Shown here one piece after another: positions 2,759 through 18,518 of a stretch of DNA of 64,000 nt. The notes under the pieces are model-generated. The model worked only from the letters and a program-made list of their open reading frames with translations. It had not been told where the DNA came from and did not search any database. Position 1 is the stretch's first letter; the number at the start of each line of letters is the position of its first letter. The position numbers and the translations under genes are program-made. Source of the stretch: Acidiferrobacter thiooxydans (lineage in GTDB: Bacteria; Pseudomonadota; Gammaproteobacteria; Acidiferrobacterales; Acidiferrobacteraceae); contig NZ_PSYR01000001.1 of assembly GCF_003333315.1 (NCBI RefSeq), positions 770,501 through 834,500 on the forward strand, given 5' to 3'.

Positions 2759-2778
2759 TACTGTATATATTACCAGTA
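2759..2778 (+). promoter_or_regulatory. LexA operator (SOS box) overlapping the lexA start codon
   Basis: The 20 bases read TACTGTATATATTACCAGTA, which fits the gammaproteobacterial SOS consensus (CTGT-N8-ACAG, here CTGT-N8-CCAG, with TA flanks). The final A of the box is the A of the lexA ATG. This predicts tight LexA autorepression of the whole lexA-imuA-imuB-dnaE2 operon. It also implies a very short or absent 5' leader. Confidence 0.88.
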
Positions 2779-3389: not shown

Positions 3390-3973
3390 TGGCCGGGGTG
3401 GAGGCCTGGGGGGCTAGGGTGTACCGAGGGGTGGTGCCCGCCCCGGCTGCTGTCATGTCCACGGGTTTCCCGGCGCTTGACCAGGGCCTGGGAGGAGGTT
3501 GGCCGGTCGGCGTATTGACGGAGTTGCGTGCCGGCCGGACGGGTATCGGTGAGATGCGCCTGCTGCTGCCGGTGCTGGCGGCCTTGAGTCGCACAGGTCG
3601 ACTGATATGGGTGGCGCCCCCCTACGGACCCTACGCCCCCGCGCTCGTCGCCCACGATATCGCGCTGGATCACCTGATCGTCGTGCGTCCGAGGACCCAC
3701 AAAGAGGCCTTGTGGGCAGTCAGCCAAGGGCTTTTGAGCCCCACCGTCGGGGCTGTGGTGAGTTGGTTTGGCGATATCCGTGAGCAAGAGTTCCGTGCCC
3801 TGCAGCGGCACGCCGCTCAAGGGGGGCATTGGGGCTTTTGTTTCCTGCCCTGGGGCCTCGCGCCCCAGCCGTCGCGCCTGCGTCTTATCCTGGAGTCCGC
3901 GCCAGAAGGCGTGCGCATCACGCTCGCTCGCAAGGCCGGGCGTCCGGTGGCGCCGCTTGTCGTTGCGCTCTAG
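3386..3973 (+). CDS. imuA: ImuA (SulA/RecA-like mutasome accessory protein)
   Basis: ImuA is the RecA-like accessory factor of the ImuA-ImuB-DnaE2 translesion mutasome. The 195-residue product has the family sequence [18 protein letters not shown] followed by a degenerate nucleotide-binding loop ([16 protein letters not shown]) lacking a full Walker A GxxxxGKT. It also has [15 protein letters not shown] and a GFCFLPW segment near the C-terminus. The start at 3386 overlaps the lexA stop by four bases, indicating translational coupling. An upstream extension of the same frame through lexA is a shadow. Regulation is expected from the SOS box at 2759. Confidence 0.88.
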
Positions 3974-3988
3974 TTTCGGGACCGTTCC

Positions 3989-5398: not shown

Positions 5399-8300
5399 TC
5401 GCCTACAGCGAGCTGCATTGCCTGAGCCATTTCAGCTTTCTGCGTGGTGCCTCCGCCCCGCAGGAGCTCGTGGAACGGGCCTGCGCCTTGTCCTATCGGG
5501 GGCTTGCCATAACGGATGAGTGCTCCCTGTCGGGCATCGTGCATGCCCATAGGGCCGCCAGGGATCGGGGGTTGCCCCTGATCGTGGGATCCGAGATCAC
5601 GGTCCGGGAAGGGTTGAAGTGTGTGGTCCTGGTGAGTAGCGCGCGCGGATATGCGGAGCTTTCCGAGCTCATCACGCGCGGTCGGCAGGTAGACAAGGGT
5701 GATTACGATCTTGGCATCGCCGATCTCGGCGCGCTCGCAGATTGTCTCGTGCTCTGGTGCCCCGATGCCGGTGGAGACCATGATCCGCTTGCGGGGGCGC
5801 TTGCGCGGGCCCTGTCCGCGCGGTTCTGGATTGCCGGGGAATTGCATAAGACGGGGACCGACGATGGCTACAAAGGGCGCCTGCAGGCCCTGTCCGCGCG
5901 CCTGGGGAGACCGGTCGTGGCCTGTGGCGATGTGCACATGCATAAGCGCGGGCGCCGCGCCCTGCAAGACACCATGACCGCCGTGCGCTTGAAGACGACC
6001 GTGGCGGAGGCAGGGTGGGCCCTGTTCCCGAACGGCGAACGGCATCTGCGGGATATCCCGACGTTATGTGCCCTCTATCCGGAGGCGTGGCTTAAGGAGA
6101 CGCAGGTCGTGGCTGAGGCCTGCCGTTTTTCCCTGGAGGACCTCCAGTATCGCTATCCGCGTCAGGGTCGCAGCCCACGCCATTCCCTAGGGCAATTGAT
6201 GCGATTGACGCGCGCGGGTCTTGCAGCGCGCTATCCGCAAGGCGTGCCGGATTCCGTGCGGTCTTTGGTACGCCACGAACTCTCTCTCATAGGGGAACTT
6301 GCCTATGCGGATTACTTTTTGACCGTCCACGACCTCGTGCGGTTTGCCAAAGATCGCGGCATCCTCTGTCAGGGGCGAGGGTCTGCGGCTAATTCCGTGG
6401 TCTGCTATGCCTTGGGCATCACTGCGGTGGATCCCGCGCGTCTCGAGGTCTTGTTCGAGCGGTTCATTTCACGCGAACGCCGCGAGCCCCCGGATATCGA
6501 TATCGATTTCGAGCACGAGCGACGCGAGGAGGTCATTCAATACTTGTATGAGCGTTATGGTCGCGAGCGCGCGGCCATGACAGCGAGCGTCATCACGTAC
6601 CGAACACGCAGTGCGTTACGCGACGTCGCCAAGGCCCTGGGTTGCGAGGCCGCGCTCGTGGATCGCCTGGCGGGATTGCTTGGTTGGTGGGAGGGGGTCG
6701 ATGTCCTGGAGGAGCGGTTGGTCGAACACGGTTATGACGTGCGCAGATCGCCGTTTCGCCCGCTTATCGCCTTGGTGCGCGAGCTGGTCGGTCGCCCCCG
6801 CCATCTCTCGCAGCATGTCGGGGGCATGGTGTTGTCGCAGGAGGCCCTGACACGGCTCATCCCGATAGAGAAGGCGGCGATGCCCGGCCGGACGGTGCTG
6901 CAGTGGGACAAGGACGACCTGGACACACTGCGCATCATGAAGGTCGATTGCCTGGGGCTTGGCATGTTGACGGCGCTGCAAAGGGCCTTCGCGCTCATGC
7001 GTGAGCACGGGCTTGGTCCTGGCACGCTCGAGGACATACCGGCCGAAGACCCCGCCGTCTACGAGATGGTGTCGGCGGCCGATACGGTGGGCGTTTTTCA
7101 GATCGAATCGCGCGCCCAGATGGCACTCCTGCCGCGTCTTAGGCCGCGCACCTTCTACGATCTCGTCGTGCAGATCGCGATCGTGCGCCCCGGGCCGATC
7201 CAGGGGAATATGGTCCACCCCTATCTGCGCCGGCGCCAGGGACGCGAGGCGGTGTCCTATCCCAGCTGTGAGATCGAGGCGGTCCTCGGCCGGACGCTCG
7301 GGATACCGCTCTTTCAGGAACAGGTGATCAAGCTCGCGGTCGTGGCCGCAGGTTTCTCGCCAGGCGAAGCCGACGAGCTGAGGCGCGCCATGGGGGCCTG
7401 GAAGAGGGACGGAGACCTTCGGGCCTTCAAGGAACGGTTTCTGAAAGGGATGGGCGCGCGCGGTTATGGCAAGGACTATGCCCAGGACATCTATCGCCAG
7501 ATCCACGGTTTCGGGGCCTATGGTTTCCCGGAATCCCATGCCGCAAGCTTTGCGTTATTGGCTTACGCCAGCGCCTGGCTCAAATGCCATGTCCCCGATG
7601 TCTATTTATGTGCCTTATTGAACAGCCAGCCGCTCGGTTTCTATGCGCCATCGCAGATCATAGCCGATGCCCGGCGTCACGGGGTGCGGGTATTGGCGCC
7701 GGATGCCCGCTCAAGCCAGGTAGCCACTGTTTTGGAGATGCGCCCAAGCGGACGGGCCGTGCGCCTTGGCCTCGACCTCGTGCGCGGGCTGAGCCGCAAG
7801 GGGGCCGCGCGGCTTGCGCAATTACCCTTGCGGGGGCGCTCCTCATGGCAGTCCATGGCGCAAGGCGCATCCCTGTCGCGGACCGATGGCGGGCGGTTGG
7901 CGCAGGGCGGGGCGTTGGATGATGTGTGTGGCTCACGACCGCAGGCCTTGTGGGAAAGTCTCGCGATCCAGGCGCCCTTGCCGCTCTTTGCGGACCCCGA
8001 GGAGGCGCGGGTGTGGCGGCGTCCGGGCACCCACGCCGACGATGTGGCCGCCGATTATCAAGCGCTGGGCTTCTCTTTACGCGGTCACCCGGTGGGGCTT
8101 ATGCGCAAGCGCCTCGCATCCCATGTCCTGCCGATCGCGACCCTGGGGGGTATAAGATCCGCTACCGTCGTAACCATTGCCGGTCTCGTGACGAGCCGCC
8201 AAAGGCCGGGATCCGCCAAAGGCCTTATGTTCCTGCTTTTGGAAGACGAGACCGGTACCGCGAATGTCATCGTGTCCCCGGAGGTGGCGCAGGCATTCCG

Positions 8301-8409
8301 CGCACTGGTCCTGCGATCCGCCCTGGTGCTCGTCACAGGCGTTCTGGAGCGCACCTCCGACAAGGTCCAGCATATCCATGCGCGCGCATTCACACGGATT
8401 TGGGCCTGA
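5395..8409 (+). CDS. dnaE2: Error-prone DNA polymerase DnaE2
   Basis: This C-family polymerase performs SOS mutagenic synthesis with ImuA and ImuB. The 1004-residue product starts with a PHP domain (AYSELHCLSHFSFLRGAS and GLAITDECSLSG). The catalytic palm has CQGRGSAANSVVCYALGI and the metal-binding PDIDIDFEHERREEV around residues 365-380. The helix-hairpin-helix region includes GFGAYGFPESHAASFALLAY. A C-terminal OB fold has TVVTIAGLVTSRQRP and FLLLEDETGTANVIV. The length is typical of DnaE2 and shorter than replicative DnaE1. The start is ATG 5395, overlapping the imuB stop (ATGA); an eight-codon upstream extension lies inside imuB. Confidence 0.95.
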   Translation: MIAYSELHCLSHFSFLRGASAPQELVERACALSYRGLAITDECSLSGIVHAHRAARDRGLPLIVGSEITVREGLKCVVLVSSARGYAELSELITRGRQVDKGDYDLGIADLGALADCLVLWCPDAGGDHDPLAGALARALSARFWIAGELHKTGTDDGYKGRLQALSARLGRPVVACGDVHMHKRGRRALQDTMTAVRLKTTVAEAGWALFPNGERHLRDIPTLCALYPEAWLKETQVVAEACRFSLEDLQYRYPRQGRSPRHSLGQLMRLTRAGLAARYPQGVPDSVRSLVRHELSLIGELAYADYFLTVHDLVRFAKDRGILCQGRGSAANSVVCYALGITAVDPARLEVLFERFISRERREPPDIDIDFEHERREEVIQYLYERYGRERAAMTASVITYRTRSALRDVAKALGCEAALVDRLAGLLGWWEGVDVLEERLVEHGYDVRRSPFRPLIALVRELVGRPRHLSQHVGGMVLSQEALTRLIPIEKAAMPGRTVLQWDKDDLDTLRIMKVDCLGLGMLTALQRAFALMREHGLGPGTLEDIPAEDPAVYEMVSAADTVGVFQIESRAQMALLPRLRPRTFYDLVVQIAIVRPGPIQGNMVHPYLRRRQGREAVSYPSCEIEAVLGRTLGIPLFQEQVIKLAVVAAGFSPGEADELRRAMGAWKRDGDLRAFKERFLKGMGARGYGKDYAQDIYRQIHGFGAYGFPESHAASFALLAYASAWLKCHVPDVYLCALLNSQPLGFYAPSQIIADARRHGVRVLAPDARSSQVATVLEMRPSGRAVRLGLDLVRGLSRKGAARLAQLPLRGRSSWQSMAQGASLSRTDGGRLAQGGALDDVCGSRPQALWESLAIQAPLPLFADPEEARVWRRPGTHADDVAADYQALGFSLRGHPVGLMRKRLASHVLPIATLGGIRSATVVTIAGLVTSRQRPGSAKGLMFLLLEDETGTANVIVSPEVAQAFRALVLRSALVLVTGVLERTSDKVQHIHARAFTRIWA

Positions 8410-8446: not shown

Positions 8447-9337
8447 CTACAAGATTCCCAGCTCGATGGCCTTTTTGATACAGGCGCGCCGGTTTTTCAT
8501 GCCCATCTTGATACGCACCGCATCGAGATGTTCCTCTACGGTCTTGATCGATATCCCAAGTACGCTGCCGATTCCTTTATAGCTCATCCCATGGGCAAAC
8601 AGTGCAAGCACTTCGCGTTGACGGATCGTAATCCCGCCAAACGATATCTTGTTGCCCACGAGGCGCCCGATCTCCCGGGCAATCGATCGCGCCAAGGCCA
8701 ACTTTTCATGGATCGGACCTTCGGGCGCTGAGATATCGAGGCATCCGATGAGCGTCCCATCGGCGCTTATGACCGGGGCCGCCACACACGTCCAGTCATG
8801 GAATATGCGACAGAGGTGCTCCTCGCCCTTCAAGATGACGGGACCTTGCGCCGCCAGAGCGAGCGCCACGGCATTGGTCCCGGCACTATCTTCGGCCAGT
8901 GATGCCCCTGCCCGCAGGCCTATAAGGGCAGCCGCGGATACGATCTCCGGGCGCGACCATAACCCCAATATGCGGCCTTGACCGCTGGTGAAAATAAAAA
9001 GATCGCTGGCCTCCTTGATGTCACCCATGTATTCCATAATGACCAGACGCCCATAGGTGACAAGCTTGCCATTCTGCTGGAGAAAATTGCGGGTCTCTCC
9101 CTCTCCAAGGGTATCGTCTATGCGCCGTTTGTTCTCGCGCACGTCGAACATACGGCATCGCTCATAGGAAGCGGCCAGCACGTTTTGCGGTACGATATCC
9201 GAAGCGTCCGCGGCCTGCAGGTATTGGATGGTATTCCACATATTCTCCCCCGATTGTGCGAGCATGACGATATCCGGGCACGGGAGGAGTCGCACCATCA
9301 TGGTGTCGGTACCGCATGTCTTCCTATGCCCCTTCAT
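8447..9337 (-). CDS. GAF-domain transcriptional regulator with LuxR-type HTH
   Basis: A 296-residue regulator. Residues ~50-225 resemble the sensor region of AcoR-type activators: an ASYERCR entry motif, RAGASLAEDSAGTNAVALAL, then a GAF-like WTCVAAPVISADGTLIGCLDIS. The C-terminal ~60 residues are a LuxR/NarL helix-turn-helix (ITIRQREVLALFAHGMSYKGIG followed by SIKTVEEHLDAVRIKMG). In AcoR proteins this sensor normally precedes a sigma-54 AAA domain and a Fis HTH; here it joins directly to a LuxR HTH. The gene stands alone, convergent with dnaE2. The start is uncertain: 9337 has no clear ribosome binding site and an internal Met near 9241 follows GGGGGAGA. Ligand unknown. Confidence 0.82.
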   Translation of the reverse strand: MKGHRKTCGTDTMMVRLLPCPDIVMLAQSGENMWNTIQYLQAADASDIVPQNVLAASYERCRMFDVRENKRRIDDTLGEGETRNFLQQNGKLVTYGRLVIMEYMGDIKEASDLFIFTSGQGRILGLWSRPEIVSAAALIGLRAGASLAEDSAGTNAVALALAAQGPVILKGEEHLCRIFHDWTCVAAPVISADGTLIGCLDISAPEGPIHEKLALARSIAREIGRLVGNKISFGGITIRQREVLALFAHGMSYKGIGSVLGISIKTVEEHLDAVRIKMGMKNRRACIKKAIELGIL

Positions 9338-9496
9338 GGGACAGGCGCTAAGGCCGCGCGCCCACTATCGTGGGCAGGAAATAGGGAGTCAACCTGCAAA
9401 ACTAGTCAGGTGGGATAATGAGACTATCCGAAACACCGGTATTAATGGCAGGGTCTATCACGCCGCTCCCGTGGCTATTACGAGGAGTGTTTCCCC

Positions 9497-9775
9497 TTAG
9501 GGAACGTGCGATTCCTGCGCGAGAACCCAAAGGCGGCAGAGGCGTCTTTTATCCGCGGCCGGCAACCGTTTTATGTGCGCCTCGAGGCGACTGGCCTGTG
9601 AGCGGTCCAGGCAGGTCGTGAAGGCCAATATGCGGCGCGGTTTGTTCATGCGCGTAAAGGCCGCGCCGCGGCCGGCGACGTGTTCACGGAACCGACGGGC
9701 GACGTCCGTGGTGATCCCGGTGTAGAGGTAGTCGTTGGCGCATTCCAGGATGTAGACGAACCAGGGCGATGACAT
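9497..9775 (-). CDS. GIY-YIG domain protein (UPF0213/YhbQ-like)
   Basis: A 92-residue single-domain GIY-YIG protein. The nuclease signature appears as FVYILECANDYLYTGIT near residues 6-22, followed by DVARRFREH and the C-terminal helix with LEAHIKRLPAADKRRL. Free-standing proteins of this size (YhbQ group) are related to SLX1 and UvrC catalytic domains; some have DNase activity, but a cellular role is not settled. The start is ATG 9775; a longer upstream frame runs into the divergent neighbour's leader. The gap to the divergent DsrC-like gene is 220 bases. Confidence 0.88.
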   Translation of the reverse strand: MSSPWFVYILECANDYLYTGITTDVARRFREHVAGRGAAFTRMNKPRRILAFTTCLDRSQASRLEAHIKRLPAADKRRLCRLWVLAQESHVP

Positions 9776-9995
9776 GCAACGGTCTCGATGGGTCATGCGC
9801 CAAGGCGAGCGTGCGCACGCCGGAATCTTGCGCCAGAAGAGGGTGGGTGGCAAGGGCGCCGGTCTCTTGACCTGCGTCAAGGCGTGTCGGCGGCCCGATC
9901 TGAAAAAGTGCCGCGTAGACGATTGGCGTGCCGATAGGAACATCGCGCCGTCGAGAGGATCTCGGGGCGCAACGAAGACCGATTCTGGGGGGTGT

Positions 9996-10331
9996 ATGGA
10001 GCTCATGGTGGGGGATGCGCGTGTCGTTACCGACGACGAGGGTTACCTCATCGACCCTGGGGATTGGAACGAGTCCGTGGCCGAGGCCCTGGCGTGCTCC
10101 GAGGGCCTGGTTCTGAACGGCGACCATTGGGAGGTGATCCGCTTCGTGCGGGCGTTCTTCGACGAGCACCAGGTGATCCCGGATGCCCGTTTCGCGATCC
10201 GTCATCTCGCCGATCACGGCATGGGCGCCAAGGCCCGCGCGCGCCTCTTCGAGTTGTTTCCCTACGGCTATGTGAAGCAGGTTTGCAAGGTCGCTGGCAT
10301 GCGTCGGCCGCGCGGCTGGAGCACCGGCTAA
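9996..10331 (+). CDS. DsrC/TusE-family protein with CysB only
   Basis: A 111-residue member of the DsrC/TusE/RspA superfamily, small carriers of sulfane sulfur in dissimilatory sulfur metabolism or tRNA thiolation. Family marks are DDEGYLIDPGDWNESVAEALA, WEVIRFVRAFFDEH and the C-terminal arm GYVKQVCKVAGMRRPRG. DsrC has two arm cysteines (CysB, and CysA eleven residues later next to the C-terminus); TusE keeps only CysA. Here CysB is present (Cys97), but the CysA position is Trp108 and the protein ends STG. It therefore fits neither DsrC nor TusE, and any carrier chemistry would rest on Cys97 alone. The start at ATG 9996 follows a G-rich ribosome binding site. Confidence 0.85.
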   Translation: MELMVGDARVVTDDEGYLIDPGDWNESVAEALACSEGLVLNGDHWEVIRFVRAFFDEHQVIPDARFAIRHLADHGMGAKARARLFELFPYGYVKQVCKVAGMRRPRGWSTG

Positions 10332-10345
10332 GGCGGACCGGGCCT

Positions 10346-10710
10346 GCTATCAAAAGCCCACATGCACCCGAGGCCTCCATAGCCCCGGGTGTCTTGCCAA
10401 CCCCTTCCCATCAGACCGTTGTCACGGCCCTGGGGCCACTGGAAGCCCTTTGAGGCCGCCGCTGTGGCCGGATGGACCCACGCCCCAGGCAGGACCGTCA
10501 CGGGAGTCAGCCCGTTTCGGGGGATAGGGGGGGCGCGAACAGGCGCGCGCCACCGCCGGTGACACATCTTGTCCCGAACGCGCCCCGATAGCCCCTTTTG
10601 CGCCAGCGAGCGCACCCAGGCGGCCTGCCCGGCGGTGGGCGGCCTGCCCGGCGGCGGGCATCACACCGCGCGGGGGCATCGCCTGGGGTACACAGCGCCC
10701 CCTCCCAATA
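10346..10710 (-). repeat. Dispersed repeat, copy A (inverted relative to copy B at 34560)
   Basis: Read on the minus strand, this segment aligns with 34560-34908 on the plus strand. The best part, about 165 bases, holds long shared blocks such as GGCCGCCGCTGTGGCCGGATGG and the complement of GGCCTCGGGxGCATG. By eye it is roughly 80-85 percent identical; similarity then weakens but continues through the GGGGCTATCGGGGCGCG and TGTGTCACCGGCGG blocks. There is no coherent conserved reading frame and no transposase. It begins 15 bases after the DsrC-like gene. It may be a non-autonomous element or a structured RNA family. Confidence 0.75.
10619..10656. repeat. Two tandem 19-bp units
   Basis: GGCGGCCTGCCCGGCGGTG is followed directly by GGCGGCCTGCCCGGCGGCG, differing at one position. 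The pair lies inside copy A of the dispersed repeat and is not duplicated in copy B, so it looks like a local expansion. Confidence 0.7.
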
Positions 10711-11329
10711 CGATCGCAACCCGACACCGCGGGCGTGCCGGCCCTCACCGATGGCCTCACGGCCGGCGCCATTGCCCCCTCGCGCCATTGACACGAGGGC
10801 CCCCGAGGGACCCGAGCGGTCGCCCGCACCCCGCGGGACGTGCGCCCTGGCCCATCTCCGCGAATCCGCGGTCTCCCATGGTGACTGTTTCGAGCCCGTC
10901 GCCGCTGACATCGGTCATCGCCGCGGCCGCGGCAGGTCAGGACGTACCATGCGCAACGATGGCGATGGCCGTGCTCACCCGGCCCATCCATGGTCTGGCA
11001 GGGCTGGGACGCCGATCTATCGATGATGGACGCAGTCATTGCCAGGCCCAGGGCCCGCCAGGCGCGCGCGTCACCATCCTGGTGACGCGTTCTCCCAAGA
11101 TGGTGACACCGGGATCCGCCATTACCCGGAATATCGAGGAAATCCCCGGGTTTACCCGCTGGCGCGGGTTTTGCTGATGGAGGGGTCGGGGGGTCGCGGT
11201 GACCGGGCCATAAGGGTCTCCGGCATCCCGATGGACGATCGTCGGAATGGGTTTGAGATGCCATGGTGCCCGGCCGCATGGCGGCCGGTAGGCCATGACA
11301 GGGCCACACGTACAAAGGGGGGTGATACC
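10711..11329. other. Non-coding leader region upstream of the sulfur operon
   Basis: About 620 bases with no recognisable gene; open frames on both strands are GC-driven and have no family-like sequence. Visible structures are a perfect palindrome GTCACCA-TCC-TGGTGAC at 11070-11086 and an 8-bp stem CCGGCCGC-ATG-GCGGCCGG at 11270-11288, about 40 bases before the first gene. Either could be an operator or leader hairpin for the operon that starts at 11330. Confidence 0.5.
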
Positions 11330-11824
11330 GTGGAGTTTTTCAAGAAATCTTTGGATCCCATAGTCGCGCTGGCGATCATTGCGGTATTCGACATCTTTCT
11401 GTTTCAAATCGTCGGCGCGTGGACCGTGGGCGGCGGCGAGACGATGATCGCCGGCTTGTTCGTGAAGGCCCTGGTCGGTACCAAGGAGATGAACCGCATC
11501 CCATTCTGGCGCATGGTATTCAAGCCGACGTGGGCCTATTGGAAGATCTACATCAGTCTCGGCATGGGGTTCGGGGCGCTCGTGAGCGCGATCCTGAGCA
11601 AGGAGTTCTATTGGCGGGTCCCGAAACATCTGTCGGAGTGGGTGATGATCACCATCGGTGGCCTGCTCATGGGCATCGGTATTCGCCTGTCCTTTGTCTG
11701 TAATGTCAGCACCTTTCTCGGTCTCACGCCGGAGATGAATCTCGGCGGTTACTTGGCGGTGAGCGGCCTTGTGATCGGCGCGTGGGTCGGGACCTGGGTG
11801 TACAAGAAGATCCTGGAGGCCTGA
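11330..11824 (+). CDS. YeeE/YedE-family membrane protein, first half (PmpA/TsuA-like)
   Basis: A 164-residue membrane protein with about four hydrophobic segments, one half of a split YeeE/YedE (DUF395) transporter. The family includes the thiosulfate channel TsuA and the two-part PmpAB pairs. Family marks are GGGETMIAGLFVKALVG and the second-repeat segment GIGIRLSFVCNVSTFLG with its conserved cysteine. The start is GTG 11330, preceded by a strong AAAGGGGGG ribosome binding site; longer upstream frames are non-coding. The partner half follows after 3 bases. Together they probably form an inner-membrane conduit for a sulfur species; the substrate is inferred. Confidence 0.85.
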   Translation: MEFFKKSLDPIVALAIIAVFDIFLFQIVGAWTVGGGETMIAGLFVKALVGTKEMNRIPFWRMVFKPTWAYWKIYISLGMGFGALVSAILSKEFYWRVPKHLSEWVMITIGGLLMGIGIRLSFVCNVSTFLGLTPEMNLGGYLAVSGLVIGAWVGTWVYKKILEA

Positions 11825-11827
11825 ATC

Positions 11828-12532
11828 ATGATTACCGTAGACGGTCAATGCCTGGCGGCTTTCGTTTTTGGGAGCACCGTCGGGGTGCTCGTGCAAAGGT
11901 CGCGCTGGTGCAATACCGCGGCTTTGCGCGACGCCATGCTCTTCAAGAGCTACCGCAATACCAAGGCCTTGCTGGTGGCGATGATGATCCTCACCGTGGG
12001 CTTTACGGCCATGATCAGTTTCGGCAACGGCAATCCCATGCGCTTCGATGTCGGGATCAACCAGTTCGTCGGACTGTTTCTGTTTGGCATCGGTATGGTC
12101 TTCGCCGGGGCGTGCACGGTGTCGTCGTGGGTCAAGACCGGCGAGGGCAATATCGGCGCCCTGTGGGCCCTGCTGTTTCTCATCGTCGGCCTGTTTCTGT
12201 CCTCGCTCATGTGGTCGTTCTCCTACTGGCCGCCTGCCGGACAGACGATGACCGGGCACGCGAACGCCGCCGGCCTGCAGTTCGGCTGGGCAGATGCCCT
12301 GACCTTGCAGCGCGATACCGGGATTCCGGCGATCTTTTTCGGTCTCATTCAGACCGCCGCGCTCTATGCCTTGTATCGACGCATCCTGAAGCGCGAGCGC
12401 GCGACCCTCGTGGCGGATGGTAAGGCCGAGCCGAGGGTGGCGGCGCCCGTGGCGCCGGCATCGCCGGTACTCGCCAAGACCGCCGACGATGCCGGCGACA
12501 CATCGGCCGCTCTACCTACCTTAGGAGATTGA
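11828..12532 (+). CDS. YeeE/YedE-family membrane protein, second half (PmpB/TsuA-like)
   Basis: A 234-residue multi-pass protein, the partner of the preceding gene. It has the two conserved YeeE cysteine motifs: QRSRWCNTAALRD near residues 23-35 and FAGACTVSSWVKTGEGN near 92-108. Conserved cysteines are the sulfur-relay residues in TsuA. Roughly five hydrophobic segments are followed by a ~45-residue Ala/Pro-rich cytoplasmic tail (residues ~190-234) unlike the family core. The tail may be a linker toward the soluble sulfurtransferase encoded 4 bases downstream. Confidence 0.86.
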   Translation: MITVDGQCLAAFVFGSTVGVLVQRSRWCNTAALRDAMLFKSYRNTKALLVAMMILTVGFTAMISFGNGNPMRFDVGINQFVGLFLFGIGMVFAGACTVSSWVKTGEGNIGALWALLFLIVGLFLSSLMWSFSYWPPAGQTMTGHANAAGLQFGWADALTLQRDTGIPAIFFGLIQTAALYALYRRILKRERATLVADGKAEPRVAAPVAPASPVLAKTADDAGDTSAALPTLGD

Positions 12533-12536
12533 TGTC

Positions 12537-12851
12537 ATGGGTCTATTCAACCGTAAAGCCGCTCCAACCGCAGCCGTTTCGACGGCGCCTGCCGCGCAGG
12601 TGACCTTGGAGGACGGGAACACCTATACGATAAGCCGTGTGGTCGACGTCCTGGGGGATTCCTGCCCACGTCCGCAGCTCATGACCAAAAAGGCCTTGAA
12701 CGAGGCCGTATCGGGGGCGGTGATAGAGGTCAAGGTGGATAATCCGACGTCCATGGAGGCCTTGCCGACGGTTATGGCGGCGGTCAACGGCACGCATCTC
12801 GCGACCCTCAAGGCCGATCGTTATTGGCGCGTCTTCGTGCGCAAGAACTAG
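12537..12851 (+). CDS. TusA-like sulfurtransferase with N-terminal extension
   Basis: A 104-residue SirA/TusA-fold protein. The persulfide-carrying motif is CPRP (Cys43) in VVDVLGDSCPRPQLMTKKAL, close to the CPxP of TusA and TsuB. An Ala/Thr-rich ~25-residue N-terminal extension precedes the domain, and the usual C-terminal strand ends RYWRVFVRKN. TusA-like proteins beside YeeE channels (the TsuA-TsuB pair) take sulfur from the channel, so this is the likely cytoplasmic acceptor. The ribosome binding site TTAGGAG precedes the ATG; it sits 4 bases after the second YeeE gene. Confidence 0.9.
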   Translation: MGLFNRKAAPTAAVSTAPAAQVTLEDGNTYTISRVVDVLGDSCPRPQLMTKKALNEAVSGAVIEVKVDNPTSMEALPTVMAAVNGTHLATLKADRYWRVFVRKN

Positions 12852-12863
12852 GGAGGGTATGCC

Positions 12864-13133
12864 ATGCTTCCTGTTGGTCAAAGGCAGATGCTGACGCTGG
12901 CGGTGCTGGTCGGTGTCATGACCATCGGCACCTTCGTGTACATCCTGGCCATGCCCCCGGCCTATCTGCACCGTACGCGCGATGGCGTCGCGTATTTCAC
13001 GCCGCCTGTCATAAACCCCGTCAACGGCAAGCCGCTGAACGTGAATCGGCTCGCCCAGTACTATAAGGGCAACGTTGCCGCCGGCGTCTACGCCGTAGAA
13101 AAGTCCGCGGTCGCGAAGACCACCGGACACTAG
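12864..13133 (+). CDS. Small single-pass membrane protein of the sulfur operon
   Basis: An 89-residue protein of no family I recognise. Residues ~9-31 are one membrane segment (TLAVLVGVMTIGTFVYILAM). The rest is a ~55-residue soluble tail with PPVINPVNGKPLNVN and no cysteine. The tail probably lies outside the cytoplasm, as the short N-terminus keeps a basic residue inside. A GGGAGGG ribosome binding site lies in the 12-base gap after the TusA-like gene. Expected to be a structural or anchoring subunit; function unknown. Confidence 0.75.
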   Translation: MLPVGQRQMLTLAVLVGVMTIGTFVYILAMPPAYLHRTRDGVAYFTPPVINPVNGKPLNVNRLAQYYKGNVAAGVYAVEKSAVAKTTGH

Positions 13134-13141
13134 GAGGACTT

Positions 13142-13234
13142 ATGGAACTGAACGTGCCAACGATTGCGCAAATCGTCATGTTCATCGTCATGATGTACGT
13201 GCTCTATGTGGCCCTGACGACCGACGTATTCTAG
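13142..13234 (+). CDS. 30-residue single-pass membrane peptide
   Basis: A very short gene with a strong AGGAGG ribosome binding site eight bases before its ATG. It encodes 30 residues: a short N-terminus (MELNVPTIAQ), one hydrophobic helix (IVMFIVMMYVLYVAL) and a TTDVF tail, ending TAG at 13232-13234. It lies 8 bases after the previous gene and 15 before the next, all in tandem. Size and topology recall the tiny subunits found in membrane complexes such as CydX or CcoQ-type peptides, which is analogy only. Confidence 0.72.
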   Translation: MELNVPTIAQIVMFIVMMYVLYVALTTDVF

Positions 13235-13249
13235 GGGTGGGGAGGTCTT

Positions 13250-13621
13250 ATGACAGTAAAAGAAGTGCTTCATGGAGTGACCCTGCCAGATGCGGGCTGT
13301 GCGCCGCCGATACAGCAGGCGCGGGCGGCCGCTACGGGTGGCGGAGAGATGACGACCAGCCAGATCCTTCTCTATTGCGGTTCGTGCATCGCCCTGGTGG
13401 TGGTCGGCATGTCGTTTCTGATGCGCGCAGCCTCGGTGTCGCCCGAGACGATCAAGCGTTCGGAGACCCCACAGACGGTGGGCCGTTTCGCGCCCATTCC
13501 CATGGGCGGCCTGTACGGTACCGTGACGGTCCGTGAGCTCGTGAATTACTACCTCCAGAACCCACCGCCGGCGCGGGGCGCGGCGTTCGTGCCGCGCCTG
13601 CCGAAGATCGGGGGCTGCTGA
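13250..13621 (+). CDS. Membrane-anchored cysteine-containing protein, unknown family
   Basis: A 123-residue protein. A ~35-residue N-terminal part with one cysteine (DAGCAPP) precedes a membrane segment at ~38-60 that begins with a YCGSC pair. An outer tail follows with VGRFAPIPMGGLYGTVTVRELVNYYL. The protein ends in a C-terminal cysteine (PKIGGC). A second possible start, Met34 (MTTSQILLYCGSC), would remove the N-terminal part. GGGGAGG precedes the annotated ATG. The CxxC at the membrane and the terminal Cys are suggestive in a sulfur-handling operon, but no function can be assigned. Confidence 0.72.
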   Translation: MTVKEVLHGVTLPDAGCAPPIQQARAAATGGGEMTTSQILLYCGSCIALVVVGMSFLMRAASVSPETIKRSETPQTVGRFAPIPMGGLYGTVTVRELVNYYLQNPPPARGAAFVPRLPKIGGC

Positions 13622-13623
13622 CA

Positions 13624-14505
13624 GTGCATGCCGCGCCGCTTCCGGTGCTCGCCGCGGGCCATGGGGCCGCGCCCAGGGCGTTCGTGGCGCGCACACACCT
13701 GCCTTGGCCCTTGCCGGCGCGTAGTGTGGTCATCGATACGCGTCGCCGCGCGGTATGCACGCGCGGGTCGGTGGCGGGCGGTCTCTGCCTGAATCCGCGC
13801 ATGCTTCTCACCTCGCGCGGCCGACTGGCGAGTTGGCGCAATGTCCGCTGGCTCCTGGGGGCACTGAGGCTGACCGGGGCCGAGACGGCGATCGTGGTTG
13901 GCGACCGGATGAGGTCTGAGGATTTCGTGGCCGGCATGTTGTATGTCGCCGGCCAAAGGCGGGTGGAGGTGGTGGCGGATCCGGTGACGGCGTGGCTTGC
14001 GCGTCATCCCGGGGCACGCGGCGCGGGCACGACCCGTGGTGTATTCCGTGAGGCCATTTATAGCGCCTGGCCGCGCACGCGGCTCGTGGTATTGCGCCAG
14101 GAATTGGCGGCGCGCCTGCGGGCCGGCGGGCGTGGATATCTTCTGGTCGATGGGCGGGCGCGCGGGCGCTACCGCAGGCCTGGCCACATTCCTGGGGCAC
14201 GATCCCTGCCGATGGCCGATGTAGGGCGCGATCAGGCGGCCGTGCGGGGCCTGATCTCCACCCGGCGTCCGGTGGTGGCCTATGGTGCCGGGCCCTATGG
14301 GTCAATAGCCTACTTTGCGCGACTTCGCATGCTTGCGGTGCGCGCGCGCGTGTTGGCGAGCGGCTGGCGGGGTTGGACGCATAGGCGGCACGTGCGCGTA
14401 AGCCCCGGCCGGACGGGGGTGCCGACCCCGGATAAGGCCTTGGCGGTGGCGTCGGCGGGTGCCGCCATCATGGTTCTGGCGTGGCGCATGACGAGGAGGC
14501 GCTAA
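13624..14505 (+). CDS. Tandem rhodanese-like protein lacking the catalytic cysteine
   Basis: A 293-residue protein with two rhodanese-like folds. The first is residues ~25-130 (ARSVVIDTRRRAVCTRG and ETAIVVGDRMRSEDFVAGML). The second is ~165-260 (GYLLVDGRARGRYRRPGHIPGARSLP, then RRPVVAYGAGPYGSIAYFA). In active rhodaneses the loop after the second signature is CRxGxR; here it reads YGAGPYGS, so the persulfide cysteine is absent. A hydrophobic segment near residues 270-287 with a basic tail suggests C-terminal membrane anchoring. The start is GTG 13624, two bases after the previous stop. A sulfur-carrier docking or scaffold role is more likely than sulfurtransferase activity. Confidence 0.7.
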   Translation: MHAAPLPVLAAGHGAAPRAFVARTHLPWPLPARSVVIDTRRRAVCTRGSVAGGLCLNPRMLLTSRGRLASWRNVRWLLGALRLTGAETAIVVGDRMRSEDFVAGMLYVAGQRRVEVVADPVTAWLARHPGARGAGTTRGVFREAIYSAWPRTRLVVLRQELAARLRAGGRGYLLVDGRARGRYRRPGHIPGARSLPMADVGRDQAAVRGLISTRRPVVAYGAGPYGSIAYFARLRMLAVRARVLASGWRGWTHRRHVRVSPGRTGVPTPDKALAVASAGAAIMVLAWRMTRRR

Positions 14506-14792
14506 TGGATATCCTGTTTCTGGTGTCGCGGACTGAATCGGCGCCCCTGCTGCGCGGCTTCCTGCGCGCTTGTGAGCGCCGCCAGATTGAATGCGGCTGT
14601 TTCTTTACCGGCCCCGCCGCGCAGCTCGCGTCCGATCCGGAGATCGTAGCCTCCCTGCATGCCGGTCCGGGTTCGGCGGTCTGCGAATATTCCTGGGAGC
14701 GCTTTGGGCAGGGACAATGCCCCATCCCGCTCGGGAGCCAGACCGACAACAGCGCCATGACTGCCGCCGCGCGGCGCATCGTGAGTCTCTAG
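14505..14792 (+). CDS. DsrE-like small protein with five cysteines
   Basis: A 95-residue protein with a DsrE/TusD-like beginning (MDILFLVSRTESAPLLRGFL). Cysteines sit at ACERR, the pair IECGC, VCEY, and the C-terminal GQCPIPLGSQTDNSAM. The last resembles the conserved DsrE active-site cysteine loop. The start overlaps the rhodanese-like stop as TAATG, after AGGAGG. It is shorter than canonical DsrE (~115-120 residues), so family membership is probable rather than certain. In this operon it may accept sulfur from the TusA-like protein. Confidence 0.68.
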   Translation: MDILFLVSRTESAPLLRGFLRACERRQIECGCFFTGPAAQLASDPEIVASLHAGPGSAVCEYSWERFGQGQCPIPLGSQTDNSAMTAAARRIVSL

Positions 14793-14795
14793 GTC

Positions 14796-15071
14796 ATGGG
14801 CACGGCAAAGACAGTGGTGGTCCTGGGTCGACACGATCACACAGAGGCGATGCGCGTGGCCGCCGGACTGACGATATTCGGTCATACGGTGCGCCTGATC
14901 CTTATGGGGGGGCCGGTCGCCGACACGCCGGAAAACGCCGTGCAGGCCGAAAGTCTCGAACTCGCCGATGTGCAGCCGGAGACCACGGTCCCCGATCAGG
15001 GCCTGCCCTACCTCGATACTGCCGCGCTCGCCACGGCGCTTGCGACCGCCGAGGCTGTCATTTCGCTATGA
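14796..15071 (+). CDS. DsrE/DsrF-like small protein without cysteine
   Basis: A 91-residue protein with a DsrE-superfamily-like alternating fold (KTVVVLGRHDHTEAMRVAAG, then FGHTVRLILMGGPV) and a C-terminal AEAVISL. There is no cysteine anywhere, so it cannot carry a persulfide and would be a structural partner, as DsrF-type subunits are in DsrEFH. It starts 3 bases after the previous stop and overlaps the next frame by ATGA. Confidence 0.62.
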   Translation: MGTAKTVVVLGRHDHTEAMRVAAGLTIFGHTVRLILMGGPVADTPENAVQAESLELADVQPETTVPDQGLPYLDTAALATALATAEAVISL

Positions 15072-15091
15072 AGCATCTGGAGGAAAGTCCC

Positions 15092-15283
15092 ATGCGCATC
15101 GTGGTTCTCGAGACGGATCTTTTCCCGGACCGACGCGCCATGGACGAGGCCCTGGCGTCTTTGGAGCGGACCCCGACGAGGCATCGTCTGTCCCGTCATG
15201 ACCTGCGCCCGGCCCTGAGCGAGGGCGAGTGGGATGCCGTGCTCGATGCCATCCTGGCGAGCGATGTGGTTGTGACCGTGTGA
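15092..15283 (+). CDS. 63-residue small protein, possible third DsrEFH-like subunit
   Basis: A short product (MRIVVLETDLFPDRRAMDEA at the N-terminus, LDAILASDVVVTV at the C-terminus) with a beta-alpha pattern ending in a hydrophobic strand, no cysteine. The start is ATG 15092 with GGAGG at the right spacing; an ATG at 15068 overlapping the previous stop would add eight residues. By position it would be the third member of a DsrE-F-H-like trio, but sequence similarity to DsrH/TusB is not evident. Function unknown. Confidence 0.55.
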   Translation: MRIVVLETDLFPDRRAMDEALASLERTPTRHRLSRHDLRPALSEGEWDAVLDAILASDVVVTV

Positions 15284-15284
15284 G

Positions 15285-15977
15285 ATGGGGGACCGACCTT
15301 CGCCTCGGGGTGCGTCCGCCGCTCCTGTGCGCCGCCTCCGAATGGTCATGCTCGCCGCCGTGCTCGCGCCGGTCCTGGCGCATGCCGATCGCAGCCTGCG
15401 TTTCCGGTTGGAGGTGGCCTTGTTGGCCCACGAGACGCACCAGGCGGTCCGAGGTCGGGCGTCGGCACGGCTTCTCGCGCGCATCCATAGCGATCTCGGG
15501 GTGCTCGGTTTCGAGGCGCGATCCTATTGTGCCAGGGCCGGATGTGATGTCGGGCCGATCAAGGCCCGTATCGGGGTGGCCCGTAAGGCCCTAAGGCGCA
15601 AGGCGATGCCTGCAGTATGGTCGGAGATGCGCGCGCTGCGGCGGCGGTTCCCGGTTGATCTGCGCGGCATCCTGCCGCTGCATCCTCAGGGGTATCGTTG
15701 GCGCGAGGGCCGATTTCTCTATACCCACCTGTGCGCGACCTGCCATGCCGCGGCGGGCCCTGGGAGCCCGATCCCCAACCTCTTTACGCTGGCACACCGC
15801 GAAAAGCCCGCGGATCTGATCGTAGAGATCCTGGCCGGGGTTCGCGGGACGCGCGCCGTAGGCTATGCCAATCCCTTGAGCGGCCGCCAAGTCGCGAGCC
15901 TCGCTGACTATCTGACCGCGCCTACGGCAATGCCGGCCGCATCCAGGGGTCCTGAAGGGGCGGCGGCCGGTCATTGA
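15285..15977 (+). CDS. Monohaem c-type cytochrome
   Basis: A 230-residue exported cytochrome c. An N-terminal signal segment (residues ~17-34, VVMLAAVLAPVLAHA-like) precedes an Arg-rich helical region of ~100 residues with two cysteines (SYCARAGC). A class I-type haem domain follows with CATCH at Cys150-Cys153-His154 and the family segment YANPLSGRQVASLADYL. No clear axial methionine follows at the usual place (GYANPLS lacks the Met of MPPF-like loops), so the sixth ligand is unclear. It is the last gene of the sulfur operon, one base after the previous stop, and is the likely periplasmic electron acceptor. Haem attachment would use the ccm system at 26644-33234. Confidence 0.82.
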   Translation: MGDRPSPRGASAAPVRRLRMVMLAAVLAPVLAHADRSLRFRLEVALLAHETHQAVRGRASARLLARIHSDLGVLGFEARSYCARAGCDVGPIKARIGVARKALRRKAMPAVWSEMRALRRRFPVDLRGILPLHPQGYRWREGRFLYTHLCATCHAAAGPGSPIPNLFTLAHREKPADLIVEILAGVRGTRAVGYANPLSGRQVASLADYLTAPTAMPAASRGPEGAAAGH

Positions 15978-16063
15978 GGGTGTGACAGGGTATACCATCG
16001 TCCCGGCACGCCTGCACCGGTAAAATCTCCGCCTATCGGCGTGCGGCCGGTTATACTTCCGGC

Positions 16064-16720
16064 ATGGACAGTCGTAGCGCGCGCCCGTGGCTCAAGGCCA
16101 TGGGGATCACCGTCTGGCAACGCCGAGAGCCGATCGCAGTCGCGAACGCCCAGGGGCCTTGCGCGGAGGTGGACGGATGGGGGCGCCTGGAGGATGAAGT
16201 TCGCTCATGCGTGCGCTGCGGCTTGCATGCCGGGCGCACGCAGACGGTATTTGGGACCGGTCCGCGCACGGCCACATGGTGTTTCGTGGGAGAGGCGCCG
16301 GGGGCCGAGGAGGATCGGCGTGGCGCGCCCTTTGTCGGGCGCGCGGGCCAGCTGCTCGATGCTATGCTGCGGGCCCTGGCCCTGGACCGCGAGCAAGTCT
16401 TTATCGCCAACGTCTTGAAGTGTCGGCCGCCGGGGAATCGCGACCCGCAGCCATCCGAAGTGGCGGCATGCCTGCCCTATTTACGCGCACAGATTGCCGC
16501 CGTGCGGCCCCGGATCGTGGTGGCCCTGGGGCGATTTGCCGCCCAGAGCCTGTTGGCCACGGACCAGCCGCTCGGCAGGCTCCGGGGATCCGTGCATGAC
16601 TACGAGGGCATCCCGGTGGTGGTGACCTATCATCCGGCCTACCTCTTGCGGCGTCCGGCGGACAAGGTCGCCGCCTGGGCCGACCTGAAACGCGCCCGGG
16701 GGGTCGTGGCCGATGAGTAG
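16064..16720 (+). CDS. Uracil-DNA glycosylase, family 4 (iron-sulfur)
   Basis: Removes uracil from DNA, important where cytosine deamination is fast. The 218-residue protein has the family 4 motif GEAPGAEEDRRGAPFVGRAG near residues 84-103 and the C-terminal TYHPAYLLRRP. Cysteines that would bind the 4Fe-4S cluster are the pair in CVRCGLH and those in NVLKCRPP and EVAACLPYL. The stop overlaps the rimI start (ATGAGTAG). An uncharacterised ~40-residue N-terminus precedes the domain. There are 86 bases between the cytochrome gene and this start. Confidence 0.92.
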   Translation: MDSRSARPWLKAMGITVWQRREPIAVANAQGPCAEVDGWGRLEDEVRSCVRCGLHAGRTQTVFGTGPRTATWCFVGEAPGAEEDRRGAPFVGRAGQLLDAMLRALALDREQVFIANVLKCRPPGNRDPQPSEVAACLPYLRAQIAAVRPRIVVALGRFAAQSLLATDQPLGRLRGSVHDYEGIPVVVTYHPAYLLRRPADKVAAWADLKRARGVVADE

Positions 16721-17201
16721 CTGGCGGCTACCAGCCCAGTCCGCGCGTAACACGCCGTCGCAGATCCGGCTTCGGGCGATGGCCCGCGAGGACCTGCCGT
16801 TTGTCATGCAGGTCGAACGGCAGGCCTATGAGTTTCCCTGGACCGAGGGGATATTCCGCGATTGCCTGCGCGTCGGTTACTGCTGCCGGGTGCTCGAGGA
16901 TGAGGGGCGTCTCGTGGGCCATGGGATCATGGCGGTCGCCGCTGGCGAATGCCATCTGCTGAATATCTGTGTCCACCCGCGCTATCAACGACGCGGGCTT
17001 GGGCGGCGGATGCTCAGTCATCTGTTGGATGTTGCGCGTCATGGGCAGGCCAAGATCGCCCTGCTCGAGGTGCGGCGCTCCAACAAGGCCGCCTACGCGC
17101 TCTATTACGGCCTTGGATTCAATGAGATCGGTCTGCGCAAGAACTATTACCCGACGCGTCACGGCCGGGAAGACGCCCTGGTGCTGGCCTGCGATCTGTG
17201 A
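16713..17201 (+). CDS. rimI: Ribosomal protein bS18 N-acetyltransferase RimI
   Basis: A 162-residue GNAT acetyltransferase that modifies the N-terminus of ribosomal protein S18. Visible marks are the acetyl-CoA loop RYQRRGLGRRML, the ECHLLNICVHP strand, LEVRRSNKAAYALYYGLGF and a tail with the KNYYPT and EDALVLA motifs typical of RimI. The first ~18 residues are extra to the family, so an internal start is possible. It overlaps the glycosylase gene by 8 bases and converges with crcB, 2 bases apart. Confidence 0.9.
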   Translation: MSSWRLPAQSARNTPSQIRLRAMAREDLPFVMQVERQAYEFPWTEGIFRDCLRVGYCCRVLEDEGRLVGHGIMAVAAGECHLLNICVHPRYQRRGLGRRMLSHLLDVARHGQAKIALLEVRRSNKAAYALYYGLGFNEIGLRKNYYPTRHGREDALVLACDL

Positions 17202-17203
17202 TG

Positions 17204-17596
17204 TTATCCGCCCGAGATGCTGCGTGATAGCCAGGCGCCGAAGGTCGTGGCCGCGAGACCCAGCACCACCGACCCCAGGAGGTAGCTCATCCCCAGGATC
17301 CAGGCCCCGTGCTCGATGAGCCCCACTGCCCCGAAGGTGTAGGTCGAGAAGGTGGTATAGGCCCCGAGGAAACCTGTCAGCAGGCCGGTACGCAGCTCCG
17401 GACTTATGCTGATACGCTCCAGGGTCTCGAAGAACAGAAAGCCCATCGCAAACGAGCCCAGCAGGTTGATCGACAGGATATCCCACGGAAAGGGACCGCC
17501 CACGACGTGCGCTACGACCAGCGCCTGCAGATAGCGGGCGATGGCGCCGAAGATGGCAAACACCGCGATGAATGCCAGGGTCTTCATGGGCGGCAC
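17204..17596 (-). CDS. crcB: Fluoride channel CrcB/Fluc, second subunit
   Basis: Fluc channels export fluoride from acidic environments. This 130-residue four-helix protein has FGAIARYLQ, the pore motif WDILSINLLGSFAMGFL, GLLTGFLGAYTTFSTYTFG and a last helix near the C-terminus. The start may be Met1 or Met4 (MKTLAF). It is the last gene of a three-gene operon (crcB, DUF190, crcB) read from a fluoride riboswitch at 18445. The two CrcB proteins are clearly different, as in heterodimeric Fluc pairs. Confidence 0.95.
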   Translation of the reverse strand: MPPMKTLAFIAVFAIFGAIARYLQALVVAHVVGGPFPWDILSINLLGSFAMGFLFFETLERISISPELRTGLLTGFLGAYTTFSTYTFGAVGLIEHGAWILGMSYLLGSVVLGLAATTFGAWLSRSISGG

Positions 17597-17680: not shown

Positions 17681-17968
17681 TCACAATGTGTTCGGGGGAA
17701 CGAGCCCGCGCAGCGCGGCGAGCGCCGCGGCGACCGCCTCGGGGGTGTCGAAAAATTCGATGACGAGCGGCAGGCGCGCGGTCATACGCAAAAGGTCGGC
17801 GGCATGGATCTCGCCATGGACCCCGAACCCGGCGACGCCGCGGAATACCGTCACGCCTTGGATCTTGTGCTGATCCTGGAGCAGGGCGAAGATCTGCTTC
17901 ATGACATCGAGGCCGTCGGCGTGGTCGCCCTCGCGAATATAGATGCGCGCGATTTCAATCGCCTTCAT
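17681..17968 (-). CDS. DUF190-family protein
   Basis: A 95-residue protein of the DUF190 family, with a PII-like ferredoxin fold by family knowledge. Marks are IARIYIREGDHADG, VTVFRGVAGFG and the C-terminal PLVIEFFDTPEAVAAAL. DUF190 genes often lie beside crcB and may be a nucleotide- or ion-sensing partner, but its role is not established. It lies between the two crcB genes, so co-regulation by fluoride is expected. Confidence 0.88.
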   Translation of the reverse strand: MKAIEIARIYIREGDHADGLDVMKQIFALLQDQHKIQGVTVFRGVAGFGVHGEIHAADLLRMTARLPLVIEFFDTPEAVAAALAALRGLVPPNTL

Positions 17969-17983
17969 GCGACTCCCTCCCCC

Positions 17984-18355
17984 TCACAGACGAGGCGCGC
18001 TCAGCGCCCCGAGAAGCACGCCACCAACCCCAAGGGCGAGTGACGTCGCGACATACGCAAGACCCCGTAGCACCTGTCCCTCTTCCACGAGCAGCAGGGT
18101 CTCGAGCGAGAAGGTGGAGAAGGTCGTGTAGGTGCCGATGCCGCCTACGATCACCCCGGTGCGCAACGCCGCACTCACTGGTACCCCGTGGACGAGCGTG
18201 TAGGAGAGGAGGCCTATGAGAAACGAGCCCATGACGTTGATCGAGAGCGTAGCCCACGGGAAGTCGCGCCCGAGGAGGCGTTGGACCACGAGGTTCTGTC
18301 CATAACGCAACCATGCCCCAAGCACAGCAAAGCAGGCGATCCACACAAAAGTCAC
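17984..18355 (-). CDS. crcB: Fluoride channel CrcB/Fluc, first subunit
   Basis: A 123-residue four-helix fluoride channel subunit with AVLGAWLRYG, WATLSINVMGSFLIGLLS and RTGVIVGGIGTYTTFSTFS. The start is GTG 18355 with GAGGAGG just upstream; a longer upstream frame (to 18448) runs into the riboswitch expression platform and is rejected. It is the first gene of the operon and 15 bases ahead of the DUF190 gene. Confidence 0.93.
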   Translation of the reverse strand: MTFVWIACFAVLGAWLRYGQNLVVQRLLGRDFPWATLSINVMGSFLIGLLSYTLVHGVPVSAALRTGVIVGGIGTYTTFSTFSLETLLLVEEGQVLRGLAYVATSLALGVGGVLLGALSAPRL

Positions 18356-18444
18356 CGGTCCTCCTCGGCGGCCGAGACGCGGGGTTTGGTCAGGCCCATG
18401 GGGGCGCAGGATCGATCGGGGGTGGCGAATGGATAAGCGCACCC

Positions 18445-18518
18445 ACATTTCCGATACCCGGAAATCGTAGGCATCATCAGCCGCGAGGGCGGTTATAGGT
18501 AGGCTGCCATCTCCCGCA
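18445..18518 (-). ncRNA. Fluoride riboswitch (crcB motif)
   Basis: On the minus strand the aptamer reads GGGAGATGGCAG, then ATAACCGCC, then GCGGCTGATGATGCCTAC. These are the conserved GAUGGCA, AACCGC and GCUGAUGAUGCCUAC elements of the crcB motif, in order and at the right spacing. A hairpin ATTTCC-GGGTATC-GGAAAT (18447-18465) follows, about 90 bases before the GTG of the first crcB. There is no T-run, so control is more likely translational than by termination. Confidence 0.9.

Follow-up and report, generated by a model that had tools for sequence, protein, structure and literature searches.

A conserved eleven-gene operon of Acidiferrobacter thiooxydans is a candidate transmembrane relay for sulfane sulfur

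In a 64,000-nucleotide stretch of the Acidiferrobacter thiooxydans genome (contig NZ_PSYR01000001.1, positions 770,501 to 834,500; hereafter the window, from genome G000), eleven open reading frames stand in tandem on the + strand at 11330-15977, and these eleven genes are one conserved unit. They encode a YeeE/YedE-family channel in two proteins (Y1 and Y2), a TusA-type sulfurtransferase, three small membrane proteins of 89, 30 and 123 residues (m89, m30 and m123), a tandem rhodanese-like protein, three small DsrE/F/H-like proteins (E1, E2 and E3), and an exported cytochrome c. We consider it fairly probable that the operon is a transmembrane sulfane-sulfur relay, which would act by group translocation and feed cytoplasmic oxidation by reverse Dsr. 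An earlier note on this DNA had described eleven tandem genes with gaps mostly of 0-15 bases; all of the reading frames are present, and the actual gaps run from -1 to 20 bases (in order 3, 4, 12, 8, 15, 2, -1, 3, 20 or -4 depending on the start of E3, and 1).

The unity of the operon is seen in its recurrence. In profile searches, all eleven families were kept in the window's order in 49 of 52 untruncated, non-redundant loci from Gamma-, Beta- and Alphaproteobacteria and SAR324. By tblastn, all eleven recurred without change of order in 12 complete loci from the window's family and 4 from another family, and gene order was intact in every locus of these two families of the order that was not cut by a contig end. 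Chance is excluded because all eleven recur in order in both searches. The small proteins stay together when Y2 is taken as the anchor, as the earlier note had proposed to examine: m89 is present in 52/52 loci, m30 in 51/52 and E3 in 50/52. The exception in order is a contig-truncated locus (L096), in which the part from E2 to the cytochrome lies before Y1. A scan of named sequences with the Y2 profile found 68 loci, with carriers that include Thiobacillus, Sulfuriferula, Sedimenticola, Thiorhodococcus, Thioglobus (SUP05), Magnetovibrio, Rhodobium, Rhodospirillales and SAR324; cultured carriers include Sulfuriferula multivorans, Sedimenticola selenatireducens, Thiorhodococcus mannitoliphagus, Magnetovibrio blakemorei and Rhodobium orientis. 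Among 399 Pseudomonadota genomes, E2 was matched in the window's own and in only one of the 398 others, and the operon is therefore rare overall. Distances among the cytochromes and among the m123 proteins track the distances among the channel proteins (Mantel 0.36 and 0.50, respectively; 0/300 permutations), while those of E1 hardly do, which may reflect saturation.

The channel retains the cysteine path of its structurally solved relatives. Y1 (11330-11824, GTG start) corresponds to the C-terminal half of PF04143 (residues 171-310, 70.5 bits) and Y2 (11828-12532) to the N-terminal half (residues 1-152, 81.6 bits); the channel is thus divided over two genes, with the C-terminal half encoded first. 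Y1 and Y2 are the only YeeE-family proteins of G000. The TusA-type protein (12537-12851; PF01206, 56.9 bits) carries Cys43 within GDSCPRPQLM and has the YeeE-YeeD fusion 8K1R as its best PDB match. Cys124 of Y1 aligns with C293 of Spirochaeta thermophila YeeE (PDB 6LEO), and Cys96 and Cys28 of Y2 align with its C91 and C22. In the YeeE-YeeD structure, the three YeeE cysteines and that of YeeD form a stack through the membrane, from the first to the fourth cysteine (PMC11073785). The matching residues are invariant among homologues of the operon proteins (Cys124 in 68/68; Cys28 and Cys96 each in 69/69; TusA Cys43 in 68/68), as are Cys60 of E1 (64/64) and the last residue of m123 (67/67). Since these positions are kept, the operon retains the YeeE path and adds one cysteine at each end, with E1 Cys60 on the cytoplasmic side and the C-terminal cysteine of m123, according to its predicted topology, on the periplasmic side. 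The alignments thereby suggest that the six invariant cysteines form one sulfur path.

At the cytoplasmic end of this path stand E1 (14505-14792), E2 (14796-15071; DsrF-like or Chp1-like) and E3 (15092-15283, or from 15068; DsrH-like or Chp2-like, lacking cysteine). The predicted structure of E1 (AlphaFold2, AF2; predicted local distance difference test score, pLDDT, of 94) has the DsrE/DsrF-family entries 3PNX and 2QS7 among its top Foldseek matches (probability 1.00, E 0.01-0.03), and eight E1 homologues weakly touch the DsrE family at the level of Pfam and NCBIfam. In these two databases m89, m123, E1, E2 and E3 have no significant match, and PDB searches with the E1 and E2 profiles gave none either, bar a weak one between E2 and DsrF (2HY5_B, E 1.1). 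Relatives lie in clusters of the YTD type, also called DsrEFH type II, within the same order: E1 is related to their DsrE-like protein at hhalign 99.6%, the E2 profile matches their corresponding small gene at 5e-11 to 4e-16, and E3 is tied to DsrH/Chp2 only by gene order and weak profile matches. With canonical DsrEFH (type I) and TusBCD, the trio shares the DsrE fold (predicted, for E1), three subunits and a key cysteine in the first; in contrast, it has no detectable sequence relation to the type I DsrE, DsrF and DsrH of G000 (hhalign 2.0, 1.2 and 0.6%).

The YTD-type clusters of this order (L134, L135, L136 and L137, in G039, G020, G021 and G040) have a full-length YedE between two TusA genes, followed by DsrE-like and Chp-like genes, and G021 and G040 carry both such a cluster and the operon. 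In two SAR324 genomes, homologues of E1-E2-E3 are followed directly by TusA, lacking the membrane module. For YTD, DsrE and Chp proteins have been reported from Desulfobacterota, Nitrospirota and Acidobacteriota alone (PMC12998232), whereas subtype 1 of DsrEFH type II is said to include some Pseudomonadota (PMC13293266), which could include relatives of the operon trio. Our placement of the trio is made by comparison with the YTD-type clusters of this order.

The operon also encodes three small membrane proteins. m89 (12864-13133) and m30 (13142-13234) are single-pass proteins without a conserved cysteine, with one helix predicted in 65/67 and 64/66 homologues, respectively, and a C-terminal part predicted to be periplasmic in m89. 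m123 (13250-13621) has as its start, in most homologues, the equivalent of codon 34 (13349); its AF2 model comprises a helix (3-28), a small domain and a tail of low pLDDT, and its charge bias (+0.66 versus -0.84) puts the C-terminal part outside. Both m89 and m123 are therefore predicted to face the periplasm. A PDB search with the m123 profile gave no significant match, and an hhalign value of 72% between m89 and m123 is only suggestive of a relationship. The YCGSC motif and terminal cysteine described by the earlier note are both present in m123, although they differ in conservation: the first cysteine of YCGSC is widespread (54/67) and the second is not widely conserved, while m123 ends in GGC and its homologues in GGC or QGC, with GC at the extreme end in all aligned. 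In SoxY, the sulfur substrate is held on the cysteine of a C-terminal GGCGG (PMC6067878), and because SoxY binds sulfur on the cysteine of a similar tail, a carrier role for m123 is reasonable. By this analogy, m123 is probably a sulfur carrier with putative sulfur binding at its C-terminal cysteine. Unlike SoxY, m123 is membrane-anchored, has no SoxY domain (PF13501) in Pfam and terminates at the cysteine itself. In a close relative (G005), m123 is partially duplicated in tandem, with extra stretches for residues 1-49 and 86-123 (L033:9384-9985).

The tandem rhodanese-like protein (13624-14505, GTG start; PF00581, 37 bits) was said in the earlier note to lack the catalytic cysteine; this holds for the active-site loop, while two other cysteines are common to just over half of the homologues. 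Most homologues have, in the alignment, a hydrophobic stretch at the N-terminus and, at the C-terminus, a helix that ends in basic residues, and for this reason the protein is probably periplasmic and C-terminally anchored. Profile searches found a further rhodanese in 40/52 loci, mostly between E3 and the cytochrome, with a signal-like N-terminus and an intact active-site loop (FCNTGHWAS). This putatively secreted, active-site rhodanese is, by sequence, a member of the set in most lineages. It is missing from the operon in the window's genus, and a distant exported rhodanese with YCNTGHWAS is encoded elsewhere in the window's genome. The last gene (15285-15977) encodes an exported cytochrome c with an N-terminal helical domain (PF13442, 29.5 bits). 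Its single CxxCH confirms the mono-haem assignment of the earlier note and is kept in 58/59 homologues; no methionine is conserved after the haem motif, so the second haem ligand is uncertain.

The genomes that carry the operon provide a setting for these parts. Full-length DsrA is encoded in 29 of 32 carrier genomes, in keeping with occurrence in sulfur oxidisers with Dsr (of the remaining three, a 1.8-Mb genome has no match and two have fragments), and SoxY in 23 of 24. G000 has a canonical dsrA-B-E-F-H-C cluster away from the operon, and this gene order suggests, by analogy, an oxidative-type Dsr. Given SoxY and dsr in the carriers, the operon sits between a periplasmic maker and a cytoplasmic consumer of sulfane sulfur. 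In the relay that we propose, sulfane sulfur from a Sox-bound persulfide, polysulfide or thiosulfate would be handled in the periplasm by the rhodaneses and loaded by them on the C-terminal cysteine of m123, which would serve as a carrier anchored in the membrane and has a GGC tail like that of SoxY. Electrons would go to the cytochrome c if this loading is oxidative. m123 would then offer the sulfur to the Y1-Y2 channel, of which m89 and m30 may be subunits, and the sulfur would move from Cys124 of Y1 to Cys96 and then Cys28 of Y2. TusA Cys43 would pick it up at the cytoplasmic face and pass it to Cys60 of E1 in an E1-E2-E3 complex, from which it would reach DsrC and DsrAB. The segment from channel to TusA to DsrE follows, by analogy, from solved or tested relatives: in vitro, persulfidated TusA gives sulfur to DsrE of type II, which then gives it to DsrC (PMC13293266). 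We infer the direction of sulfur, the substrate, the formation of complexes and the roles of m123 and the cytochrome. The route drawn by the earlier note, from YeeE to TusA/DsrE, is thus supported in part: the transport cysteines of YeeE and the sulfur-binding cysteines of TusA and DsrE are kept, the probable m123 carrier and the extra rhodanese are added, and the cytochrome may, as the note supposed, be where electrons leave.

Several observations weigh against this relay. The window's own rhodanese has a weak signal sequence, no hydrophobic segment above the cut-off and a C-terminal helix that is weak too. In addition, 15 of 58 cytochromes lack any methionine after the haem motif, which leaves some doubt that the protein is a plain electron carrier. 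Nearly all genomes of this order encode DsrA, whether or not they have the operon, and this makes co-occurrence with DsrA uninformative within the order; the DsrA link is consistent with the relay rather than a test of it. Furthermore, G000 already encodes canonical DsrEFH and DsrC, and a second DsrEFH trio is therefore not strictly needed.

The channel cysteines also bear on a different reading, in which the operon takes up thiosulfate by TsuA-like passage and TusA cleaves it, while the rhodaneses and the cytochrome c interconvert periplasmic sulfur compounds. All three channel cysteines and the TusA-type cysteine of TsuA-TsuB (YeeE-YeeD) are kept at matching positions, as this reading would predict. 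However, the NCBIfam TsuA model scores 55 bits against the 400 required, and a free ion needs neither a periplasmic cysteine carrier nor rhodaneses. Moreover, TusA and DsrEFH II of cable bacteria are not loaded by thiosulfate (PMC13293266). TsuA-TsuB is assimilatory in Escherichia coli, whereas the operon has a two-chain permuted channel, periplasmic partners and a DsrE trio. Thiosulfate uptake is therefore, in our view, unlikely to be the function of the operon.

The relation of E1 and E2 to the YTD trio raises another possibility, namely that the operon is a YTD cluster with added subunits and functions in the disproportionation or anaerobic reduction of sulfur instead of its oxidation. Against this stand the carriers themselves, which include Thiobacillus, Sulfuriferula, Thiorhodococcus and SUP05, known as sulfur oxidisers and phototrophs. 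The canonical dsrEFH of G000 lies directly after dsrAB, as in oxidative clusters, and a c-type cytochrome belongs to the set. YTD has been proposed as a marker of disproportionation (PMC12998232), a role that is disputed (PMC13293266). Taken together, we regard a function in disproportionation or reduction as improbable. YTD or DsrEFH type II clusters, known from sulfur disproportionators and Desulfurivibrio and described in cable bacteria and sulfate reducers (PMC13293266), combine YeeE and TusA with a one-cysteine DsrE-like protein and two small partners. Likewise, in the operon yeeE/yedE (here split) and tusA are in synteny with a dsrE-like gene, whose product has a predicted DsrE fold and one conserved cysteine, Cys60. 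The YeeE-TusA-DsrE core is thus recognisable as a variant of the described cluster and, for that reason, is not new. The operon differs from YTD in its split YeeE with swapped halves, in the extra m89, m30, m123, one or two rhodaneses and cytochrome c, and in the presence of canonical DsrEFH in the same genome (G000). YTD clusters usually occur with reductive-type dsrAB; the dsrABEFHC order of G000 suggests the oxidative type.

The regulatory region agrees with a single transcription unit. The element TGGCGCGGGTTTTGCT at 11160-11175 (+), 170 bases 5' of Y1, is the sole sigma-54 match in the 64-kb window (0.17 expected), and a sigma-54-like element lies 5' of Y1 in 31/52 homologous loci, against 1/52 in the reverse-strand control. 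Inside the block, a sigma-70 scan gave one promoter-like site, on the opposite strand, versus 1.1 expected, and a terminator scan gave seven terminator-like sites, three on the opposite strand and the others within genes; none was convincing. Rfam contains no RNA family matching 9000-17500. In ten loci, a sigma-54 activator-class response regulator is encoded near the operon, mostly upstream (one member was checked against Pfam). Alongside it, a PhnD-like binding protein and a histidine kinase are encoded upstream in nine to ten loci (5' of Y1 in L046, L068, L076, L091, L100 and others), and the three are probably a three-part sensor. By sequence, the sigma-54 element and the recurrent activator genes support one regulated operon. 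A sensor or export module, with YeeE-type import for signalling or removal of cytoplasmic persulfide, would be in keeping with these sensor genes, with the signalling role of Hyphomicrobium SoxT1B (PMC11582611) and with the reversibility of TusA-DsrE transfer in vitro (PMC13293266), but it is very unlikely given that the recurrent neighbours showed no repressor of the SoxR/ArsR type and that a sensor would not need eleven or twelve structural genes, of which three or more encode cytoplasmic carriers.

The SoxT1A module of Hyphomicrobium denitrificans resembles the operon in YeeE-family import for cytoplasmic oxidation and in a small single-pass membrane protein nearby, whereas it has a single-chain SoxT and sHdr in place of Dsr, and the small cysteine proteins of the operon are not reported for it. 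Nor do the recurrent neighbours that we listed contain sox genes, adjacent sox genes or soxSR being the mark of SoxT. PmpAB of Serratia consists, by description, of two-chain YeeE-family proteins like Y1 and Y2, and we know of no TusA-DsrE-cytochrome set that accompanies it. The earlier note was aware of no described system that combines these parts, and this stands for the full eleven-gene set, for which we found no paper in the open-access literature, though not for the YTD-like core. The split permuted channel, the periplasmic module and the whole conserved set of eleven to twelve genes appear undescribed. More tentatively, and with somewhat less than even confidence, we propose that sulfur oxidisers have in this operon a previously undescribed machine for the group translocation of persulfide, in which a dedicated cytochrome c and rhodaneses would load an m123-type carrier oxidatively. 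The carrier would pass sulfur through a two-chain permuted YeeE to TusA and to DsrEFH of a second type, and so connect periplasmic Sox with reverse Dsr in the cytoplasm.

The surroundings of the operon contain further genes. A DsrC-family protein is encoded at 9999-10331 (+; PF04358, 101 bits); it keeps the inner cysteine and ends in RRPRGWSTG, lacking the C-terminal cysteine of DsrC. In almost every locus of the genus its gene adjoins the operon, a Magnetovibrio relative lies 2 kb from the operon (L101:15555-15878), and more than half of 24 carrier genomes have relatives that match to the end; it is a possible acceptor or regulator partner. An upstream LuxR-type regulator (8447-9337, -; assigned by eye) likewise stays beside the operon in the genus, and an RHH_4 protein is found in 15 other loci, nearly always upstream of Y1 and divergent. 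At 2778-8409 (+), LexA-like, ImuA-like, ImuB-like and DnaE2-like genes in tandem form, by eye, a mutagenesis cassette of familiar type. Downstream, on the - strand, two genes for CrcB/FluC proteins flank one for a DUF190 protein (17204-17596, 17684-17968 and 17987-18448).

The transfer of sulfur from periplasm to cytoplasm in sulfur oxidisers has been described as poorly understood (PMC11582611). Organisms that combine a truncated Sox with reverse Dsr require such a transfer step into the cytoplasm, and the operon is a specific, conserved candidate for it, with six cysteines to mutate and present in cultured strains. In addition, the operon gives context to five protein families that are left blank in databases, and it extends the YTD-type DsrE trio to an organism that already has canonical DsrEFH.

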